Part shown: positions 2,608 through 56,495 of the stretch, in pieces
Numbering within the stretch: position 1 is the first letter of the stretch
Layout: each line of letters begins with the position of its first letter
Source of the DNA: Capsicum annuum
Lineage: Eukaryota > Streptophyta > Magnoliopsida > Solanales > Solanaceae
Reading direction: 5' to 3'
DNA: 64,000 bases
NCBI RefSeq assembly: GCF_002878395.1
Contig: NC_061121.1
Location: forward strand, 132,908,126-132,972,125
The notes under the pieces: generated by a model
Seen by the model: only the letters and a program-made list of their open reading frames with translations
Database searches by the model: none
What the model was told of the DNA's origin: nothing
Made by a program: the position numbers and the translations under genes

Positions 2608-3003
2608 ATGAAACCACTCATTTATGATCCAAGTTTTAGAGTTGATTCTGAGACTACACGGGCAGTAACTTGGATCTCTTTTCCCAATCTCCTACCTACT
2701 TATTTTGTCAAGGAATCTTTGTTTTCTTTGGCGTTAGCTATTGGAAAATCCCTCCACTTGTACATGGCTACAATCAAGAATACCATGTCTAATTGTTCAT
2801 GGGTGAAGGTACAAATTGACTGTGCTATAGAACTACCCAAATTTGTATGTATGGTTGTAGTAGATGTAATCGTTGGAGCAAAACGTACAACTAATATAAG
2901 GATACAATATGATGCCTTGCCAAAATATTGCAAAGAATGTTGGTTACAAGGTCATAATAAAGTTGGATTCAGGAAATTAAATCCTAATCTGAGTAATTAT
3001 TAA
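2608..3003 (+). pseudogene. L1 LINE ORF1 remnant (DUF4283 and zinc knuckle)
   Basis: A 131-residue frame matching the C-terminal half of plant LINE ORF1 proteins. It has the RAVTWISFPNLLPTYFVKES segment of the DUF4283-like domain, then a CCHC-type knuckle region YCKECWLQGHN near residues 108-118. The final cysteine expected after GHN is missing (the frame reads KVGFRK), so the zinc site is probably dead. In related elements this protein binds the element RNA. The part upstream is out of frame and partly duplicated, so the methionine used here is not the original start. Confidence 0.65.
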
Positions 3004-4329: not shown

Positions 4330-7300
4330 TAATGCCAATCAAAATGGGATAATCTAGATTTTTGTACTAAATAATATTCGTGTGTCTCTTGTTGCAGACT
4401 CTAGTAACTAGGTGACTACATAATTAAGTTTTCTGAAAGAGAGAAGACTTATTATTACTATTTTGTATGCAAAATATAATACTTCTAAAATATGTAAACT
4501 GGAAATGATATGCATTGTCTGAGTCATGATATGAATTTGCCTTGGGTGATAGAAGGGGACTTTAATGTTATTTCAAATAGGGGGAGAGAAAATTAATGGT
4601 CTTCTTGTGTATCCATAAGGGTAAGAAGACTTTGATTTCTGTGTAAATTAATTTAAATTATTTGATATCAGATTTAAGAGAGTCCATTTTACATAGTGGA
4701 ATAGGAGAGTTGTTAAGGACTGTATTTTTAAGAGGCTTGACATGAATTAATGAACCAAATCTGGTTAGGTATGTTTGTGAATATAGAGGTGGAGCATCTA
4801 GCCAAAACAGGCTCAAATATACACCAATGTTGAGAACTTGTGGGGTAAATACTACTTCAATTACCAAGCCTTTTAAATTTTTAAAGTTTTGGACAGAATC
4901 TTCTGATTTTAAAGACATGGTAAGGGAGAGTTGGAGGGTAAATGTAACAATGAGGTCTTTATTAGTATAAAGCATAAAATAAAGAATACTAAACTTGCTC
5001 TATCAAAATGGAGTAGAGAGAGGTTTGTGGACATATTCAATAAATTAAAGATATAGTGAGAATCAAAGAATACTTGCTTGAAGAAAATTCATCTGCAGAA
5101 AATAGGATGATGCTTCAATATGTACATGTTGATTTAAAGAAATACTTGCACTATGAGAAGGAATACTAGAGATAAAAAGCATGTATCAAATGGTTTAATA
5201 AGGGAGATAGAAATACTATGTTTTTCATAACTTGATTAATGAGAGAAGAAAAAGGTTAAATATCAATAGAATTAATAAAGGTGATGTAGAATGGGCAGTG
5301 GGTCAGGAGGAAGTAGTAGCTGAAGATTGATTATTGTATCATAATAAGTTTGCTGCTGAAACTGATTCTAATGTAGAGTTGTCACTTTTCAATAATATTT
5401 CTACTTGCATTTCCACAAAAGATAATCAGATACTAAATGAGATGCCAATAAATGAAGAGATCAAAAAAGTACTGTTTAAATTAAATAGTGAAAGTTCTAG
5501 AGTTCCTAATGGTTGTACTGGCCATTTCTATCTGCTATGTTGGATACAGTTGGTGTTAACATTATTAAGGTGTTAAATAAGTACTTTAAGGGGTTACTCT
5601 TCAAAAATCAATTATTCAGACTAATTTGGTCTTGTTGACTAAAAGAGAAAATGTACAAATTTCTCTGATTTAAGACCAATTAGTTTAAGTAGTTTTTTGA
5701 ACAAAGTAATTTCCAGGGTGATTAGTAACAGGATAGATATGTTACTTCCCAAAATTATGTCATAGAACTAGTAAAGTCTTATAAAGGATAAAAGCATTAT
5801 CAAAAATATTCTTTTAGTACAAGAGATTATTGGAGACATCAGAAGAAGGGGAAAACCTACAAATATATTAGTGAGCTATACGACCAAGGCATATGATAGG
5901 GTGTATTGGAGATTTCTAGGGAAGGTTCTTTAAAAAATGGGTTTTAATAATCTCCTGATTAACAAGATTTGGAAATTAATGGCTAATAATTGATATTATG
6001 TTCTCATCAATGGTTAGGCTAATGGTTTCTCCTTTATCTCCTGCTTCATTTTTATATTTCTACTGAGGTACTCTCTAGAGCCTTAAATGAGTTATTTTTG
6101 GACAAGGATTTTAAGGGCTATGAAATGTCTAAATGGAGTGATCATATCAACCATTTAGCGTATATTGATGATACTATCATATTTTATTCTGTTGAGAAGA
6201 AAACTCTTTATTTAGTGATAAACATATTGAAGGAGTATGAAAATTAGCCCTGGAAAAAAATTAATAAGGATAAAAGTTTCTTTTTTTATGTTTCCCAAGA
6301 CTACAAGATTGATTGTTCAAGATATTGAGAAAGTTACTATTTTTAGTATAGGAACAATCCCTTTAATATATCTTGGATGTCTAATTGGACATGCTAGGAA
6401 AAGGAAAACGAACTTTACTGAATTAGTAAAGAAGGTGCAGAATAAACTTCAAGCATGGAAAGGTACGTTTTTTGTCTTTTGGTGGTAAATATATTTTTAT
6501 TAACAGTATGTTGCAAAGCATTCCAGATTACTTATTGTCTATTATTATACCTCCCAAGTGTGTCCTTTATGATTTACATAGATCTTTTGCAAGGTTTTTA
6601 TAGAATTTTAAGGAGGAAAAGAGGAATAAATATTGGGTACCAAGGGTTGATGTATGTTGTTAAAATAATAAAGGTGGGTTAGGCTTTAGACCCTTATTTC
6701 CTATTTTTAAAGCTCTGTTTTCTAAATTGTGGTAGAACTTCACAACCAAAAAGTCTTTATGGGCTAATTTCATGTGTACTAAGTATTGTAAAAGGTCTAG
6801 AGCTCAAACTGTTAAATGGAAAGGGAGTTCACAGACTTGGATGTATATGCTTGAAGTAAGAGATTAATTTGATCAAGACATTATGTGCTTTCTATTAATC
6901 ATATAATGCAGGGTGGTATGGAGGATGTTAAGTTATTAATGCTTGAGGATGGATGGAATGCACCACTATTGAACCAAATGATGACAGAAAAAGTAGTGAT
7001 GCATGTTCTTTACAAAATCATGGTGGAACGAGATGCAGAAGGTTGTGATAAACCATGGTGGAGACTCATTACGAGTGGAAAATTCATTGTTTGAAGTTCT
7101 TGGAATATAGTGAGAGAAGAAAGAGACAAGTAGAAATTTTTAAATCACATATGAATAAAGTGGTTGCCATTTAAAATCACCCTTTTTATCAAAAATATGT
7201 AAAAAAGGAATTCTTACAGGAGAGGTATTAGCGAAGATGACGGTGGTGGAGAATATGAATTGTAGTAGCTAAATTTCAACAATTTTTGAAACTTTTGAAC

Positions 7301-29026: not shown

Positions 29027-29360
29027 CTTAGATACAGTCATTTGATTTCTAGGGAATTTTGCCAGTTTCATTGCCTTAATTCATTTTATTTTTTTTGCTA
29101 TTTTGATCTTTCTATTAATGGATTTTTCGGGATTTACCTCTTCAATTATTTATCTCCTTGTTCTCTCTTGTGTCGTTTTTTTCTTTCTGTATCTTTAGAT
29201 ACATAGTCATTTGATTCTATGGAATTTTGCCAGTTTCATTGCCTTAATTCATTTTTCTTTTTTCTATTTTGATCTTTTTATTAGTGGATTTTTCGGGATT
29301 TACCTCTTCAATTATTTCTCCGCTTGTTCTCTCTTCTGTCATTTTTTTTCTTTTTCCCCC
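29027..29360 (+). repeat. tandem duplication, about 168-bp units
   Basis: Both units carry GGAATTTTGCCAGTTTCATT (at 29053 and 29221), GGATTTTTCGGGATTTACCT and a CTTGTTCTCTCTT stretch. The second unit differs by small indels and substitutions. An open frame at 29211-29477 is produced by this T-rich repeat and does not look like a protein. Confidence 0.85.
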
Positions 29361-31284: not shown

Positions 31285-34200
31285 TGATCAACACTGCTTA
31301 GCTCACTGATGAAATAGCAGAGACAACATAGACCAACGGTGTTGTTCCAACTGCTGAATCTCCTGCAATTAAGATAATTGATCAAAGTCATTCTTACTAT
31401 CTCTATTCCTCGAATTACCTACGGATAAAAATCATTTTCGCTATTTTTTATGGCAAAGGTTATGGAGGTTGGAGAAGGTTAATAATTATTGCTCTTTCAG
31501 CCAAGAACAAGTTAGAATTTTTTGATAGATCGTTGATTATTTCTTCCTCAGATTTTAATATGCACAGTGCTTGGAACAGGTGTAACGACATGGTCCCATC
31601 ATGGCTGCTAAACTCCCTCTCGAAAGAAATTGCAGAGAGTATGCTATATTCCAGCAGTCCAAAGGATCTATAGAAGGATCTTAAAGAAATATTTGGTTAG
31701 ACAAGTGGAGCCAAGTTATTTCAACTTCAAAAAAGTTAAGTGAAACCACCTAGGTAAATACAAGTGTCTCAACTTATTTCACTAAACGGAAAAGTTGATA
31801 GGATGAACTGGATGCCTTTGAATACATTTTTTGTTTGCCTATATATCTGTGAGTATGGTGCTAAGGAAAATGGACGAAAGGCATACCAAGATGAATGATT
31901 GTTGCAGTTCATGATGGGATTGAATGATACTTTCATAGGTGTGAGAAGTAATATATTGATGTCTTCTCCCTTACCTTCTATTGGGTAGGCTTATTCACAC
32001 ATAATTCAGCATAAAAAACAGAGAAAAAATCATGTTCCAACAGTGTACCCTGGAGATTTATCATCCTTTCTTGCCTCTAATCAACCTACAGAAAGAAAAT
32101 TTAATGATTATAAAATACAGAATCATGATTTTAATTTCAAGATAAATGATTTAATTTGTAGTTACTGTAAGAAAAAAGGTCATACAATGGACAAATGATA
32201 TAGAATTCATAGATTTTCTGCTGATTTTAAGTTCACAAAACAGAGAAAATATCAAGAAACTGTTCAAGCCAACAAAGAGTTTTGACACTGCTAAGGAACA
32301 AATAAGCAGTAATGGTCCAACTATCATGTCCTTGACATAAGAAAATGTGGGACAACTATTGGTTTTTCTTCATCAAATCAAGACTACACAATGGAAATAC
32401 TCCTGAAGCTTCTGTCAGCATGAGTTTTGCAAGTAAAACTAAGTTTTTCAATTCTTATGCATACATAGTTAACATTAACAGTAATTCTTGGATATTAGAT
32501 AGTAGAGCTACTCAGCATATGACTCACACTAAATCAATTTTGACAAATTTCAAAGCTTTACCTAAAGCTCTCATAGTGACTCTCCCTACTTCATATAAAG
32601 TCAGAGTAACTCATTCAGGAACAGTCTGTGCACTACCAAATTTAGTGTTGCACAATATTTTATATATACTTTCTTTTAAATTCAATCTCTTGTCTATATA
32701 AAAATTATGCAAACGACTCAATAATTATGTGTTATTTACTCCAACTTCTTGTTACATGTTTCAGGGCCCTTCTCTGAGGAGCCCACTAAAAATTGGTAGA
32801 GAAAATTGAGGCCTCTGCATATTCAAATTAAGTCAGTCAGATCTTCTTTCTAATGCCCTAAACAAGAAAATCACAAGTCCTAGTTTAGGTTTCAATTCAG
32901 TTTCTAGTAATAAGTTTTTCAATTTTAGTTCCTATTCTAGTTCGTGTTTTACTTTGTTTGATTCCAAAATAAAAGAGAAATTATGACATTATAGACTGGG
33001 GCATACGTCTTTGAGTAATATGAGAAATATTTCTTTTTATTCCATTTCTTCTTGTAAGAATTTTGATACTTCTTGTGAGATTTGTCCAATGACAAAACAA
33101 TCTAAACTACCTTTTTCTACTAGTAACATCTCAACAAAAGATATTTTTTTGAGTTGATATATATTGATACTTGGGGACCATATAAAGAACTAATGCATGA
33201 TGAGCATAAATTTTTCGTACCATTATGGATGATTTGAGTAGAGTAATATGGACCTTTTTGTTATGTAATAAGTCAAATGCTTTCACAATTCTTAAATCTT
33301 TTTTAACTATAGTCGAAAGACAATTTCAAATCAAGGTCAAAATAGTAAGATCTGACAACGCTCTTGATTTAGGAAGTGTAGAAACTCAATCAAAATATAT
33401 TATTCATAAAGGGATTCAACACCAAACTTCATGAGTATCTACTCCACAATAAAATAGTGTGGTATAAAGAAAACACAGACATTTTCTAAGAAATATCTAG
33501 GACCCTTTTATTCCAATCACATCTGTCCATTCAATATTGGGGTGAAGTCTTTTGGTTGCAACCTATCTAATCAATAGATTTCCTTCAAAATTTCTTAACA
33601 ATAAAACACCCTTTGAGGTACTTTTCAAGATCGCACCTAACTATTCTAATTTTAAATATTTTGAATGTTTATATTTTATCTTCGCTTTATCTTCTCAAAG
33701 GTCTAAATTGACACCAGAGCTATTACATGTGTCTTTTTGGGATATCTACATGGAAATAAAGGCTACAAAGTTTTAGTTCTTGATACTAAGAAAATCATTA
33801 TTTCTAGAGATGATGTGTTTCATGAAAATGTCTCTTCTTTTGCTTCTTCTAAATCTAATGATCCCTACTTTTTGGTTCATACATTGATCCTAACTAATGA
33901 TTATAATGATAATACTTACACTAATCAGAGCATCTCACTCCCTATCTATCACTTTAACTTTGCCTCATGTACCCATTACTGTGGACCAGGTTTAACCCTT
34001 TGTTCCTTCTACTATCACGGATCGGGTGCAATGTCATGTTCCTCTTACTGTCATGGATCAGGTACATCCTCTTGTTCCTTCCACAATTAATATTTTATTA
34101 CTTAGGAGATCAACTTGAGAACACAAGATTCTTAGTCATCTAGAAGACTATATTTCCAATTCTGTGCACCTAGCTAATATAAGTTCTTGTTTCTCATCTC

Positions 34201-35735
34201 TATCTCCCTAATCTCTCTTTCTGTCACAAATCTATCTTCCAATAATCAACATATGCTGAATTTTTTTGTCTAATATTCAAGAACCTGTAAATTATAATCA
34301 AGTTATATTGCATAAGAGTTGGAAAGAAGCTATGGATAAAGAACTTCAGGCCCTTGAATGAGACAACACTTGGGACGTGGTCTAACTACCTTCTAGAAAA
34401 AAGGTTTTACCTTGTAAGTAGGTTTACAAAGTCAAACAACATAGTAATAGCAGCATTGAAAAGTTAAAAGCTATATTATTAATCAAAGAAGACATACAAG
34501 GAAAGGTATTAATTTTAATGAGACTTTTTCTCCAATTATCAAAATAGCTACTATTTGGTGTCTTCTAACTATAGTTGTCAAAAGAAGTTGGGGGCTCTAT
34601 CAATTGGATATTAATAATGCATTTTACATGGAGATTTCCATGAGGAAGTCTCCATGAAGTTCCCCGATGAGACTGTTCCATCATCCCCATCTCATGTTTG
34701 CATGTTTAAGAAGTCTATTTATGGACTTTGTCGGGCCTCTAAGCAATGGTATTCAAAGCTCATGGCTGTCCTTAATTTTAACGGATTCAATTCTCTTAAT
34801 GATTTTCAATAGTGGCAGTATATATCGATGACATTGTTTTAATAGATAATGACAACGCAAAATTGCATGCATTGAAGTTATTTCTACATAAGAAGCTTCG
34901 AATAAAAGATTTGGGAGATTTACACATTTTCTTGGGCATATTGAGGGAACCTAATGGCATCATACTTTCACAACAAAAGTTCACAGTTGATCTCCTAAGG
35001 AAATTTGATGTCACACATATGTCACCTGTTTCATCTCCTCTTGATCCTACGGTAAAGCTAAATTTAAATGACGGAGATGTTATTTCGAATCCCACTGTAT
35101 ATAGACATCTCCTTGGTAAGTTGAATTATCTTACTCACACAAGGCTGGATCTTGCCTTCACTATTCAACATCTTAGCAAATTCATGCAAGATCATCGTCT
35201 ACCTTATCTCACAGCCGCATTATGTGTTCTTCGTTACGTGTTCAAGGAACCAAGTTTAGGACTTTTTCTCAACGTCTCTTCTTTCTTTGAGTTACTTGCC
35301 TTTTGTGATTCGAATTGGGAAAAATGTCAAAATTCAAGAAAATTCGTTAGTGGATTTTATATATCACTTGGGGAATCTCCCATCTCTTGAAAGTCAAAGA
35401 ATAAAACATCTATTTCTCTTAACTTCGTCGAGGCTGAATATCGTTCTATGAGGCACGTGGGTTCTGAGTTCACATGGTTGGTTCGTCTCATCCAAAATCT
35501 CTCCATTCCAATATCACTACATGTGTCTCTTCATTCGAATAGTCTGGCAGCAATACACATTGCTAAGAATTCCGTGTTTCATGAAAGAAAAAACATGTTG
35601 AGATTGATTGTCATTTCATTCGATAAAAAGTTTTAGATAAACTTATTTCACTTTCATTTGTTTCATCTTCCTCTCAATTAACCGATCTATTCACAAAATC
35701 ACTCATTGACCTTCTTTATCGCAGTGTTTTTAGGT
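31285..35735 (+). pseudogene. Ty1/copia gag-pol polyprotein remnant
   Basis: The gag opens near 31285 and is readable across shifts to about 32010. A zinc knuckle C-SYCKKKGHTMDK lies near 32157-32200, but its last cysteine codon is TGA. The protease keeps WILDSRATQHM near 32488-32520, with arginine in place of the glycine of the usual D-S-G motif. A pre-integrase HYRLGHTSLSNMR segment lies near 32988, and the integrase core at 33225-33800 (MDDLSRVIWTFLL, VRSDNALD). The reverse transcriptase part (34812-35390) has VYIDDIVLI and a long open frame into RNase H (ending near 35636). The changed protease and knuckle residues and at least ten stops show decay. Confidence 0.85.
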
Positions 35736-37616: not shown

Positions 37617-37642
37617 GACTCTATTAGCCGATATATTCTTTT

Positions 37643-38932
37643 GGAAAAAGGGTCAAATATACCCTTTAATTATGCGAAAAGGTCCAAATATATCCTCCGC
37701 TACAAGTTTGGTCCAATTATGCTGTCGCTGTTAAACTTTAGGAGCAAATATACCCTCCGTTATAAGTTTGGTCCAAATATACCCTCGTTGTTAAAGTTTA
37801 GGAGAAAATATACCTCTTAACTTTGCAAAAAGGTCCAAATATACCCTCCGTTACAACCCATAACCCGACCCACCAATTTACACCAACCCATAACCCAACC
37901 CAAATTTTGTTTATCAAAATTTCAATCTTATAATGTTATCGAAATATTTCATCAGTTCAATGACTCTTCAAATATTATGTTAATGTTGCATTTTTCTTAT
38001 TACCAGTGTGTTCTACTTCAAATATTGTGTTGATATTGCATTTTTCAAACTTTGATTTGTTTTCATGTTGTTTGATTTTATCGCGAAGGACTCTATTCTA
38101 CTAAAATATTTTAAAATAGTTGTAAAATGTGGAAGAATCAGGGTCATGGCTTCTCCAGCTGTTTCAGCTCCTAAGAGAGAGACAGACCCCCCCAAAAAAG
38201 GATTATCATATCCGAAATGGGTCTTGTTTCAATCTTTGAAAGTAGTATTGATAATTTTTACAACAAACTTCTCGAAGGACAGAGTATAATCACTTTAATA
38301 TACAGATTTGATGCCTCAAGTTACACAGTTAGGTTCGCGGAACAGATTCTTAATTTCTCCTCCCAAGGCTAGATAGACGGAAAAATGATCCTCGTTTAGA
38401 TGACTTCTAGAGATATTATCTTATTGCTAGAAAAAGTGCCTTCAATGATGTAAAACAAAATTTGGGTCGGGTTATGGGTTGATCCAAATTGGTGGATTGG
38501 GTTCAAGTTGTAAAAGAGTTGGGTGAATTTATTTTTTATGATGTGGCAATTATTTCGCTTACGTGGCAATTAAATTTATTTTTTTAAAAAAAGGAAAATT
38601 GACTTGTAATTTTCAGCTAATCATTTAACATTCAAAGGGGTATATTTGCTCCTAAACTTTAACAGCTATGATATATTTGAGCCAAACTTGTTATAGAAAG
38701 TATATTTGGACCTTTTCACAAAGTTTAGAGGTATATTTACTCCTAAACTTTAACAACGAGGGTATATTTGAATCAAACTTGTAACGGAGGATATATTTGA
38801 ACCTTTTTGCAAAATTTAGGGGTATATTTGCTCCTAAAATTTAACAGCAAGGGCATATTTGGACCAAATTTATAACGGAGAATATATTTAAACCTTTTCG
38901 CAAAGTTAAGAGATATATTTAACTTTTTTTCC
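37643..38932 (+). mobile_element. Pack-MULE-like element carrying a KAS I fragment
   Basis: The element is bounded by a perfect 9-bp target duplication TATTCTTTT (37634-37642 and 38933-38941), the length typical of Mutator-like elements. Its ends are inverted: GGAAAAAGGGTCAAATATA on the left and GGAAAAAAAGTTAAATATA on the right, read in reverse complement. The inverted arms are long (over 200 bp) and built of tandem words such as GGTCCAAATATACCCTCCG and TTAAAGTTTAGGAGCAAATA. The inner arms also pair (CATAACCCGACCCACCAATT against its counterpart near 38465-38505). Between the arms is a piece of a host gene. No transposase is encoded, so it depends on another MULE for movement. Confidence 0.85.
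38125..38455 (+). pseudogene. captured fragment of plastid 3-oxoacyl-ACP synthase I (KAS I)
   Basis: Inside the MULE, the plus strand reads KCGRIRVMASPAVSAPKRE (38125-38181), like the junction of transit peptide and mature protein in plant KAS I. After a frameshift in a C7/A6 run near 38186-38198 comes MGLVSIFESSIDNFYNKLLE, then RFDASSYTVRF and NFSSQG. A TAG stop replaces the next residue, and IDGK follows. After another shift, NDPRLDDF, a TAG and RYYLIARKSAFNDVK can be read to about 38455. These blocks match the N-terminal third of KAS I in order, without introns. KAS I elongates fatty acids in plastids, but this copy has stops and lacks the catalytic cysteine and histidine region, so it is inactive as an enzyme. 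The match is from recall of the family and needs a search. Confidence 0.75.
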
Positions 38933-38941
38933 TATTCTTTT

Positions 38942-41049: not shown

Positions 41050-42190
41050 TCTATAATCTATAATATATTAAAAGTGTGAACACCCTTAGAAAAGTGATTC
41101 GAACTTTTTATCCTTTATTAAAAGTTTCTCCTTTAGACAAATCGTCTTTTCACTATTTTTATAAATTATTATTAATTATATTTATAATATTATCTCCTAA
41201 AATATATGGAATCAGGAGTTTAAAATATATATGATAAGACTTAACAAACATTGCCTTATTTTTTGGCAAAAGAAAAACGTAGGAGTATATTTGGTAAAAT
41301 TAAAAAGTTGTTATTACTTTTAACAATTTTTGTAAAAAAGGCATTAAGAAAGAAAAACGTAGGAGTATATTTGGCAAAAACAAAAGGTATTGTTATTTTA
41401 TTTAAAAATTTTATTCATTCATTTCTTAAAATTTTTTATCAATTGTTCAATATCTATAATTTATCTATATAATATATTAAAAGTGTAAAAACATTGAACC
41501 ATTTACCTTTCATTACAAGACTTTTCTTTAGATAAAACTGTTTTTTCACTATTTTTTAAATTTATTATTTAATTATTTTTTATTATATTAACTAGACTTC
41601 CTAAAATATATGGAACTCCTAAGATATACGGTAGGAAAATTAATTAATATTTTTCTTTCTACTAGACGTTCTAAAATATATGAGTCTCCTAAAATATATG
41701 GTAGGAGAATTAATTAATATTTTTCTTTCTACTGTTCAATTAGAAAAATACTCCTAAAATAGGACTCTATTAATATTTTATTTAAAAATTTTATTTATTC
41801 ACTTTTTAAAAGATCTTATCAATTGTTTAACATCTCTAATCTATATCTATCTATAATCTATCTATATAATATATTAAAAGTTTGAAGAGTCTCAGAAAAG
41901 TGATTTAAATTATTTACCCTTCATTACAAGATTCTTCTTTAGACAAAACTGTCTTTTCACTATTTTTTATATTTATTATTTAATTATTTTTTATTGTATT
42001 AACTAGACTTCCTAAAATATATGAGACTCTTAAAATATATGGTAGGAGAATTAATTAATATTTTTTTTACTACACTTTCTAAAATATATGAGACTACTAA
42101 AATATATAATAAGAGAATTAATTAATATTTTTCTTTCTACTGTTCAATTAGAAAAATACTCCTAAAATATGACTCTATTAAGGAAATACT
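41050..42190 (+). repeat. three direct repeats of about 400 bp
   Basis: Units start with TAATATATTAAAAG at 41061, 41470 and 41867. They share AAAAGTGATT-, the CTTTAGACAAA-CTGTCTTTTCACTATTTTT block, and the downstream words CTAAAATATATGAGACTC and GGAGAATTAATTAATATTTT. The opening word resembles 5' ends of some plant Helitrons, but no CTAG-type 3' end with hairpin was identified, so the origin is left open. Confidence 0.7.
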
Positions 42191-43646: not shown

Positions 43647-46554
43647 ATGAAGTTTATGAAACTTGGATCTAGGCCTGACACTTTCATCACTACTGAGGCT
43701 GTAAGGTAACTTCATGTTTTCTTTCTCTGTTTCTTGGATTCAGCTAGAAATAGTTTAGAAGACTTCAAAGAAACCAAGATTTCCTTTCTTGATGCAACAA
43801 CAACATACCAGTGAAAACGCACAAGATGGGTCTGGGAGGGTAGAATGTATGCAAACCTTACCTCTACCTCTTAGAGGCAGAGAGCCTGTTTCCAAAAGAC
43901 TGTCGGCTCATTTTTTTTTCTTGATGCAGGTCAGTTAATTCTGAAGTTATTAGTGATCTCATAGTCCAAGTAAAGGGTAGCAGATATTTGCTTCACAAGG
44001 TTAAATTTCTAACTTTTCTGGGTTCCTTCTCTTTTTCTTTTCCACTTGGTCAATATTTGGCTGAACTTGAAAAATGAGGACTTTGAAGTATATTAAATTC
44101 TTGATAGTTGAAATTGTGTTGAATTTTTGTGAGTGAACGAATTTTTTCAATTTAAATACTCATTGAGTTTTCAACTTCAAATTTTCTATTTTTATTCAAG
44201 GTTAAAATAACTATGGATGTACACATAATTTGTATATCCAAATGCCTACTAATGTCGAGCTAATTGTGTTAAACAGTTTCCTCTGCTGTCAAAGTGCTCA
44301 AGGCTGCAGAGGCTATGCTCTGAAAGTCCAGAAACCTCACAGCACCAAATTGTGCAGCTACCAGATTTTCCTGGTGGAATTGAAGCATTTGAGCTATGTG
44401 CAAAATTCTGCTATGGAATCACTATTACTCTAAGTGCCTACAACATTGTTGCGGCTCGGTGTGCTGCAGAGTACCTGCAGATGACAGAGGATGTAGAGAA
44501 AGGAAACTTGATTTACAAACTCGAAGTATTCTTCAATTCTTGCATACTTTCAGGTTGGAAAGACTCAATTGTGACATTACAGATTACTAAGTCCTTTCCT
44601 TTATGGTCTGAGGACTTGGGAATTACAAGCAGATGTATTGAAAACATTGCTTCAAAAGTCCTGGCTCATCCTTCAAAGGTGAATTTGTCGAGGACCTACT
44701 CAAGAAGAGGCCCGAGGGATGATATTTCTTGCAATGAATCTGAAAGCAGAAGGCATAATAAAGGTTCATCTAAAGTTTGGTGGGCTGAAGATTTAGCAGA
44801 ATTGAGCATAGACCTTTATTGGAGAAGTATGATAGCCATCAAATCTGGTGGGAAAGTACCTGCTAGTGTTATCGGTGATGCATTGCGAGTTTATGCTTCA
44901 AGATGGTTACCAAACATTTCAAAGTATGCAAATCATGAGAAGCATGTGGTACATGATCAATCCGAATCAGATTCAATTGGAAAACACAGGCTGCTTTTGG
45001 AGTCAATAATCAGCTTGTTACCAGCTGAAAAGGGGGCAGTTTCTTGTAGTTTCTTGTTGAAACTGCTTAAAGCCGCTAACATTCTGAAGGCTTCTTGTTC
45101 ATCCAAGATGGAATTGGCAAGAAGGGTTGGGCTTCAATTAGAAGATGCTAGTGTTAATGATCTGTTAATACCTTGTGTCTCACACACATTTGACACAATT
45201 TATGATGTGGATGTGGTTATCACCATATTACAACAGTTCATGTTGCAGGTGCAAAGTCCCCCAACGAGTCCACTAAGAAGGAAAGGAGATTTTGAGAGGA
45301 GAAGGTCCCGGTCCGCGGAGAATATTGACCTTGAGTTTCAAGAAAGCAGAAGATCTTCTTCAGCATCACATAGCTCAAAACTCAAGGTAGCTAAGCTTGT
45401 CGATGGATATCTTCAAGAAATTGCCAGTGACACAAATTTGCCCCTGTCAAAATTCATAACAATTGCTGAAGCAATTCCAGAGTTTGCCAGGCTTGACCAT
45501 GATGATCTTTACAAAGCAATTGACATCTATCTCAAGGTAAAATTGCAGATAACATCTTCAACTATACCATTATCTTTTGCCCAATTACTGTTGAGGTTTC
45601 TATTTTATTTAAAGAAATCAAAAACGTTACATCCATATGTAGAAATAATTCTTTGCATATGTCCTAAGTGTTAAAAACTAGGATGTGGGGCATTACCATG
45701 TTAGCAGATAACCAACTCTTTGACATCTTAATATCCTCAAATTCAATGTTCAGTTAGAATTAGAAGCTCTAATTCTGATTTATAGAATCAGGCATGTTCA
45801 GCCTACATCATGTTGACAGTTAAAAAATAAGATAACTTTGAAGAAACTGTAGAGGATGAATTGTTGTTATAATGAAAATGATTTAAGTTATACGCACTCA
45901 CTAACTGTGTAAAGAGTTTTACACGATCAATGTCGTTTAATCACTTTTACAGGGTTATCAATTACTGAGTTAATACTAATCATAGATATGACAATGTAAT
46001 TTTAGATTGTATATTTTCTAACTGATGTTGTATATATATCTTTAACGATAATGCAGGGGCATCCAGGGCTGAACAAGAGTGAAAGAAAGCGCCTGTGCAG
46101 GATATTAGACTGCAAGAAACTATCAATGGATGTTTGCATGCATGCTGCACAAAATGAATTACTTCCACTAAGGGTAGTTGTTCAAGTTCTTTTTTTTGAG
46201 CAAGCTCGAACCGCCATGTCTGGTGGACATGTAACAGAGTTGCCTAGTAACATCAAGGCACTTCTAGCAAACCATGATGACACAGCCAAGACTTCAGCAT
46301 CTTTTAACAAGGCCAAAATGATACCAGTTGATGACCAGTGGAGTAATGCCTCAGGCCTAAAATCACCAAAGTCCAACATTTCAACTCTGAAAATGAAGCT
46401 AGCTGAAGATGACGATTTGGATGAACATAATGCTGATGAAATTGGGAAATCTTCAAGAATTCGCGCTCTATGTGTGCTTCCAAATCGACCTAAAAAAATG
46501 TTCAGCAAGTTATGGTCAAACAGTAGATCATCAGTGGCAAGTGAAAAAAACTGA
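43647..46554 (+). CDS. NPH3/BTB-domain (NRL) family protein
   Basis: Four coding exons (43647-43705, 43930-43999, 44277-45536, 46057-46554) give 628 residues; all three introns are GT-AG. The start MKFMKLGSRPDTF is typical of one clade of NPH3/RPT2-like proteins. A BTB/POZ domain covers about residues 25-130 (SDLIVQVKGSRYLLHKFPLL; FELCAKFCYG). The NPH3 domain runs from WWAEDLAELSIDLYWRSM (residue 211) to PLRVVVQVLFFEQART (about residue 515). A charged C-terminal region with an acidic EDDDLDEHNADE stretch and RPKKMFSKLW follows. Length is normal for the family. Known members act at the plasma membrane as adaptors, some for CUL3 ubiquitin ligases in phototropin or auxin-transport signalling; the role of this one is inferred only to that level. 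Transposons flank both sides. A retroposon sits at the first splice acceptor, yet the frame is open. Confidence 0.93.
43706..43929 (+). other. intron 1 of the NPH3-family gene
   Basis: Phase-2 intron between AG and G of an arginine codon (AVR-SVN). The donor is GTAACT and the acceptor TTGATGCAG. More than half of it is a retroposon insert with its target duplication (43785-43928). Confidence 0.9.
43785..43928 (-). mobile_element. retroposon tail at the intron 1 splice acceptor, with 12-bp target duplication
   Basis: TTTCTTGATGCA occurs at 43785-43796 and again at 43917-43928, flanking a 120-bp insert. On the minus strand the insert reads GAGCCGACAGTCTTTTGG, then GAGGTAGAGGTAAGGTTTGC, CTACCCTCCCAGACCC and a TGTTGTTGT end. 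This is the 3' end shared by Solanaceae RTE-type LINEs and by some SINEs that use them; the LINE at 9014-20594 ends similarly. The right duplicate supplies the working acceptor CAG; the left copy reads GCAAC and has lost the AG. Confidence 0.85.
44000..44276 (+). other. intron 2 of the NPH3-family gene
   Basis: Phase-0 intron between the LLHK and FPLL codons inside the BTB domain. Donor GTTAAA, acceptor AAACAG. No insert was seen. Confidence 0.88.
45537..46056 (+). other. intron 3 of the NPH3-family gene
   Basis: Phase-0 intron between IYLK and GHPG within the NPH3 domain. Donor GTAAAA, acceptor ATGCAG. Translation of exon 3 runs on as an open frame into this intron up to 45674, which would give a truncated protein if the intron were retained. 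Confidence 0.88.
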
Positions 46555-55703: not shown

Positions 55704-56495
55704 ATGTCTAACCAACAGGAAGTCAAAAGATTAGCCGCTTTGGCTAATGCTCAATTAAATCAAAAAAATATAGATAACCCAGGTCGGGTACCTAATCTAG
55801 ATAAAGAGGAATTGGGAGATGATGATTTAATTGACCCGGTTAATAGGAGGCGTACAATAGAAGTAGTTGCATATGTAAATCAAAATTGTCCATTCAGAGG
55901 AAAACTAGACCGCCAAGATATGCAGTTTAATATTGACAATGATGAGGATGATTTAGATGGAGCTAGAGCTACAAGGGCAATCATTCCACCACCACTAGCT
56001 TCTGGGGCGAAATTTAACATCACCAGTAGTATGATCCAGCTATTGAATTTGAAAAGACTCTTTGGTGGATTACCTGGTGATGATCCAAATCTACATTTGG
56101 TGAATTTCATTAATATTTATAAGTCGTTTGATAATCCTGGAGTAGGACAAAATGCTATTCATTTGAGATTGTTCCTACTGTCTTTGTCTGGAGAGGTAAC
56201 TATATGGTTGAATGAGCTAACTCCTGATTCTATAACAAACTGGAGGCAATTGAAAGGAGCTTTCCTAGAAAGGTTCTTTTTGCCCTCCAGAATGTTATAC
56301 TTGAGGGATGAGATCAACAACTTTAGAAAACTAGATAATGAAGCTTTGTATAAGACTTGGACGAGGTTTAAAAAGAAGTTGAATCAATGCCCAAATCATA
56401 AGATGACTGATGAACACTTCATAGAAATATTTTATAGAGCTTTGAACTCACTTACAAAGCCAATAGTAGATAATGCTGCAAGAAGAGCAGTGTAG
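55704..56495 (+). CDS. Athila-like Gag, N-terminal 263 residues (element gene, truncated)
   Basis: An open frame from MSNQQEVKRL. A charged N-terminal part is followed by the retrotransposon gag core: LKRLFGGLPGDDPNLHLVNF (about residues 120-140), LRLFLLSLSGEVTIWLNELT, WRQLKGAFLERFFLPSRM and YKTWTRFKKKLNQCPNHKM. A TAG ends it at 56493-56495; the normal protein would go on, and its continuation is found in another frame (56473-56787). In active elements Gag forms the particle that packages element RNA. This truncated copy is probably inert, but its core is remarkably uninterrupted. Confidence 0.8.
   Translation: MSNQQEVKRLAALANAQLNQKNIDNPGRVPNLDKEELGDDDLIDPVNRRRTIEVVAYVNQNCPFRGKLDRQDMQFNIDNDEDDLDGARATRAIIPPPLASGAKFNITSSMIQLLNLKRLFGGLPGDDPNLHLVNFINIYKSFDNPGVGQNAIHLRLFLLSLSGEVTIWLNELTPDSITNWRQLKGAFLERFFLPSRMLYLRDEINNFRKLDNEALYKTWTRFKKKLNQCPNHKMTDEHFIEIFYRALNSLTKPIVDNAARRAV

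Follow-up and report, generated by a model that had tools for sequence, protein, structure and literature searches.

A probable Pack-MULE with a captured segment of a plastid KAS I gene in a solanaceous plant

In the 64-kb window (the whole stretch of DNA analysed here), we identified a compact element of 1290 bp, spanning positions 37643-38932 and bounded by a perfect 9-bp duplication, TATTCTTTT, whose long inverted arms enclose a piece of a plastid KAS I gene. The KAS I segment comprises DNA that matches an intron, a splice acceptor AG and, from the exon that follows, 330 bp that run directly into the inner arm. Based on this anatomy, we consider it very probable that the element is a non-autonomous Mutator-like transposon of the Pack-MULE type from a solanaceous plant, an assignment made from structure alone, and that it carries a captured KAS I segment. 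The first-pass annotation of this DNA had already suggested a Pack-MULE-like gene capture, a suggestion that both the anatomy and the protein matches support. The captured DNA is most likely unspliced genomic DNA rather than a processed copy. The features of the element are collected in Table 1.

Table 1. Features of the element and its flanks, in window coordinates
Feature	Position	Strand	Remarks
Left target-site duplication, TATTCTTTT	37634..37642	.	
Left outer arm (TIR)	37643..37856	+	Seven ~30-bp motifs, order C' A B (C/A hybrid) B C A
Left inner arm, ACCCAACCCAAATTTTGTTT type	37862..37921	+	83% complementary to 38444-38503
AT-rich internal stretch	37922..38119	+	25% GC
Putative splice acceptor AG kept from KAS I	38118..38119	+	Placed at the point where spliced P0006 and ORF P0242 part
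Captured KAS I exon fragment	38120..38449	+	VKCGRIRVMASPAVSAPKRET to RYYLIARKSAFND
First frame shift	38185..38199	+	In C-run/A-run; frame change between ...KRETDP and RIIIS
In-frame TAG stop	38370..38372	+	
Second frame shift	38381..38385	+	In A-run
In-frame TAG stop	38408..38410	+	Position is Trp in aligned KAS I rows
Right inner arm	38444..38503	+	Starts at the end of the KAS I match; reported ranges share 6 bases
Right spacer	38504..38635	+	132 bp, no left-arm counterpart
Right outer arm (TIR)	38636..38932	-	Tandem 91-bp units, 3.1 copies
Right target-site duplication, TATTCTTTT	38933..38941	.	

Boundaries and arms of the element

The two copies of TATTCTTTT directly adjoin the element ends GGAAAAAGGGTCAAATATACCC and, as reverse complement, GGAAAAAAAGTTAAATATATCTC, and both termini begin with GGAAAAA when read inward. 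From base composition alone, the chance that 9 bp agree perfectly at a given fixed pair of positions is about 9e-6. The word itself is AT-rich and recurs in the window, occurring four times on the + strand (at 5807, 37269, 37634 and 38933) and three times on the opposite strand, so that its weight as a target-site duplication derives from its placement exactly at both arm ends. Pack-MULE target-site duplications range from 8 to 11 bp, and the perfect 9 bp found here fall within this range.

Five inverted pairs of 101-117 nt, with 78-88% complementarity, were detected within the element. The outer arms can be aligned over a length of 214 bases, well within the class of terminal inverted repeats of about 100 bp or longer that is typical of Pack-MULEs, with 183 identical positions (85.5%), 25 transitions, 6 transversions and one 31-bp gap, and their divergence amounts to a K2P distance of 0.166. 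The first-pass annotation had described a 1290-bp unit with long inverted arms inside a 9-bp duplication, and both the duplication and the arms were recovered in our analysis.

Each outer arm is built as an array of ~30-bp motifs, for which the right-arm copies read AAAGGTTCAAATATATCCTCCGTTACAAG (A), TTTGATTCAAATATACCCTCGTTGTTAAAGT (B) and TTAGGAGCAAATATACCCCTAAATTTTGCAA (C), in the right-arm order C' A B C A B C A B C. In our reading, the C/A motif of the left arm is a hybrid, resembling the product of a deletion between two similar cores. The right arm contains 104-nt copies that are 81-82% alike at 91-bp spacing, and the repeats of the left arm extend over 60 bp only (82% alike). The arms are asymmetric in that, apart from the gap in their alignment, the right side has extra units and the spacer. 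An exact 21-base pattern from the arms gave 0 matches in viral_contigs, a collection that is not intended for plant DNA.

Judged by ORF size only, the element appears to encode no transposase, as is expected of a Pack-MULE; the longest ORF overlapping it comprises 90 aa and starts outside the element in an AT repeat, and the KAS I ORFs comprise 74 and 51 aa.

Identity of the captured fragment

In the centre of the element lies a plastid KAS I fragment, spread over three frames by two shifts and interrupted by two TAG stops. When the three frames were joined into a composite peptide and searched against proteins, the best match was to plant KAS I (E = 1.4e-44), placing a host-gene fragment between the terminal inverted repeats, as in Pack-MULEs. 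In this search, 288 of the 412 candidate proteins passed E <= 0.001, and, among the best 120 matches listed, the top ten were all from Solanaceae (Withania, Capsicum, Solanum, Anisodus, Lycium and Datura); full-length relatives from six solanaceous genera are among these ten. A second, unpadded search limited to short proteins yielded 52 matches from 63 candidates, with a best E of 8.6e-45. Conversely, tblastn of KAS I proteins recovered the pieces of the fragment in three frames and in the correct order. The first-pass annotation had placed a KAS I piece in the centre of the element, with its blocks in protein order across two shifts and with two TAG stops, all of which held up in these searches; the outcome that it had named as contrary, the lack of a significant KAS I match, is excluded by the protein search.

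The longest single-frame piece alone matched bacterial-type KAS II chains at an E of about 2e-4. Against Pfam, the composite peptide reached the ketoacyl-synt family at E = 0.19 and 11.7 bits, under the cut-off of 20.8, and the longest single-frame piece alone returned no family at E <= 1; an Rfam search of the window gave 0 matches. A tblastn match reading 'NLGR', just past the KAS I junction, was assigned to arm sequence rather than to KAS I because the left inner arm carries nearly identical letters; these letters may represent microhomology at the capture joint.

Decay and age

Both frame shifts sit in homopolymer runs. Compared with the consensus of 16 solanaceous rows, in which P0241 and P0242 were counted as solanaceous from their sequence and P0001 and P0022, both on equally long Withania contigs, may be one gene, the fragment differs at 22 of 105 comparable residues. 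In leave-one-out comparisons over 96-105 residues, these 16 rows themselves showed 3 to 12 differences and 0 to 4 private residues. Among 171 KAS I rows, which are the matches listed in the two protein searches and form a partial plant sample, 14 residues of the fragment do not occur in any row, and 7 of the 24 columns that are invariant across these rows are changed in the fragment. In the tree, the end branch of the element measures 0.27, compared with a median of 0.032; the element falls into no supported clade, with 14 of the 20 inner branches open, so that the tree singles out no donor.

The element is probably old, given the extent to which its outer arms have diverged from each other. 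At about 7e-9 mutations per site per year, and assuming that the arms were identical at the start, its age would be of the order of 10 million years.

Predicted RNA fold and a possible role in silencing

Sense and antisense small-RNA regulation by Pack-MULEs has been mentioned in the literature (PMC8277862), and the terminal inverted repeats and interiors of rice MULEs carry 24-nt small RNAs (PMC4858842). By analogy, the element could be a regulatory Pack-MULE, with element-spanning transcripts giving rise to small RNAs that target KAS I mRNA. The arms indeed pair with each other in the predicted RNA, where the left arm contributes 184 bases to pairing with the right outer arm and a further 55 to pairing with the right inner arm and spacer, at an MFE of -464.6 kcal/mol (a value without a shuffle control at this length). 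The 330 exon bases, however, lie mostly outside this stem, with 110 predicted to find partners inside the exon, 86 on the intron side and 4 in the left arm, and with 130 unpaired, so that primary siRNAs from the hairpin would correspond to the arms first; moreover, the KAS I piece has diverged. We therefore regard a regulatory role as very unlikely. Silencing of KAS I by the element is possible but of low probability, and is weakly motivated because the arms would form the stem while the KAS I piece stays out of it. The broader scenario of a multi-copy family of KAS I Pack-MULEs in this solanaceous lineage, transcribed from the arms and tuning plastid fatty-acid synthesis via KAS I by means of small RNAs, is very improbable as well. 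Most likely, the element has no present function.

Probable genomic rather than processed origin of the captured DNA

An indication of how the KAS I segment was acquired comes from the DNA upstream of the exon, where positions ~37987-38119 match, in translated ORFs, the 3'-terminal part of the KAS I intron immediately upstream of the captured exon. The comparison relies on two sequences that are sisters in the tree (98/92), the Solanum chilense protein P0006, with the upstream letters ...SASCKPKAVKCGRIRAM, and P0242, an ORF on a 934-base contig, with the upstream letters ...WFVPMFCDFIANDSNLLRCFIIAVKCGRIRAM. From VKCGRIR on, they agree in 117 of 119 residues, compared with 3 of 20 before this point, and since agreement holds after VKCGRIR and not before it, P0242 most likely reads intron upstream of VKCGRIR. 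The upstream letters of the element, ...FVFMLFDFIAKDSILLKYFKIVVKCGRIRVM, are P0242-like.

This likeness was quantified in several ways. An ungapped match of 25 residues to P0242 at 38047-38121, the last two bases of which belong to the exon, contains 14 identities, a level that none of 20,000 mononucleotide shuffles attained, and its score at 38047 is 53, compared with 29 for the next best of the 127,852 positions scored across the window in six frames. Using BLAST in one-hit mode over the window, the intron-only peptide of P0242 matched 37987-38118 with E = 8.5e-5, the best of 80 rows; under the default two-hit setting, the element was absent among the six rows printed. P0241 and P0001 (Withania) have similar upstream letters, and their best match fell at the same place, with E = 0.007 and 0.010, respectively. 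Less probably, the sequence upstream of 38120 could derive from an alternative first exon instead of an intron.

At its other end, the captured piece, as read from short ORFs, stops within the exon at about 38449, at the start of the inner arm: of 11 short ORFs examined, 10 continue beyond the captured end to ..VS and a donor-like site, with P0288 as the exception. The host piece had been annotated at first pass as intronless over about 330 bp. This is right, as 38120-38449 comprises 330 bp, but it does not indicate a processed copy because the fragment lies within a single exon and no retrocopy is required to account for it. With intron-matching DNA and an acceptor AG lying just ahead of the exon, the captured DNA is most likely unspliced genomic DNA.

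A KAS I retrocopy, that is, a processed pseudogene with a MITE or MULE inserted into or around it, would offer another way to obtain a coding-like stretch of 330 bp that lacks an intron, but in such a copy the introns should be spliced out, and the intron match upstream of 38120, seen in translated ORFs, led us to reject it. The confinement of the fragment to part of one exon (with the same exception of P0288) and its position between the arms speak against a retrocopy as well, and no poly-A tract was seen on inspection by eye; all considered, this explanation is highly improbable. Equally improbable is a segmental duplication or KAS I relic flanked by unrelated inverted repeats, which would have to explain why an exact 9-bp duplication lies at the end of each arm and why homology to KAS I stops at the inner arm, in a window where three KAS I proteins used as queries gave no further match at E <= 1.

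Proposed origin and relation to known elements

For the probable Pack-MULE with its apparently unspliced KAS I segment, a plausible course of events would begin in an older element, where, during transposition or gap repair, the repair strand could have jumped to the KAS I locus, from which unspliced genomic DNA would have been copied between the arms by gap filling or template switching. An autonomous relative would then have supplied transposase in trans, moving the element to its present site, where it would have drifted, free of constraint. In this scheme, the trans-acting transposase and the template-switch capture are drawn from known MULE biology and published models (PMC8277862, PMC4858842, PMC3310237), including the gap-filling and fork-switching models (PMC8277862).

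The process is well known, and the element is a real but ordinary example of MULE gene capture that leaves the general picture of Pack-MULEs unchanged. It adds to the Pack-MULE catalogue a well-delimited capture in which an intron end and its acceptor are kept and the exon is fused to the inner arm. The kept intron and the sharp junction make it useful for studying how MULEs acquire DNA because these features point to the copying of genomic DNA. The search of open-licence literature found no KAS I capture by a Pack-MULE, which does not imply that none has been published; among the papers listed for short words from the arm sequence, none was related as judged by its title.

Foldback elements of Solanaceae, such as SoFT, have long inverted arms of short direct repeats. 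By this description, the arms of our element would be of a similar design. Among the open-licence papers listed for foldback elements of Solanum, none dealt with them as judged by title and the start of the abstract.

A closer comparison is provided by tomato, for which 28,041 MULEs and 220 Pack-MULEs have been reported, including some elements with duplicated TIRs, and where Pack-MULE sizes are most frequent at 1000-1200 bp and show a smaller peak at 1300-1400 (PMC3310237). Solanaceous Pack-MULEs described there resemble our element in having a 9-10-bp target-site duplication, a captured host gene fragment and a length of 0.9-1.4 kb, and show 87-95% identity between their outer TIRs, compared with 85.5% here (PMC3310237). 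The resemblance, for which tomato PM-ZIBP (SLMULE18 TIRs) is an example, extends to long TIRs that contain repeated motifs (Ferguson and Jiang 2012, PMC3310237). However, PM-ZIBP captured a gene for a zinc-ion-binding protein, whereas our element captured KAS I, and, unlike PM-ZIBP as described there, the arms of our element are arrays of ~30-bp motifs, forming 91-bp units on the right (PMC3310237). MULEs with tandem TIRs, defined by external and internal TIRs that are alike over at least 100 bp, share with our element the repetition of TIR-like units at both ends, but in those MULEs whole TIRs are duplicated, whereas here the repeats are 91-bp units on the right and 60-bp repeats on the left (PMC3310237).

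Other features of the window

Within or beside the captured intron stretch of the element lies a 31-nt direct repeat (37966-37996 and 38016-38046; 90% alike, 50-bp spacing). The element is located about 4.7 kb upstream of a gene of the NPH3/BTB-POZ family (At1g67900-like), which was recognized at 43647-46551 (+) in four tblastn blocks. The longest block is 94% identical over 421 aa to a Solanum stenotomum protein and 90% over 423 aa to a tobacco protein, and the last block is 92% and 77% identical, respectively, which marks the host of this DNA as solanaceous.

Other mobile-element remains in the window include copia-type retrotransposon pieces at 32345-35390 (+), present as separate ORFs with Pol_BBD and RVT_2 domains, and a 263-aa ORF with a retrotransposon gag domain at 55704-56495 (+). 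A 131-aa ORF matching DUF4283 is found at 2608-3003 (+). A tandem duplication of 166 bp in 2 copies, with 90% matches, occupies 29028-29353, and two look-alike two-copy tandem arrays, at 41591-41733 (70-bp units) and 42002-42140 (67-bp units), perhaps belong to one family.
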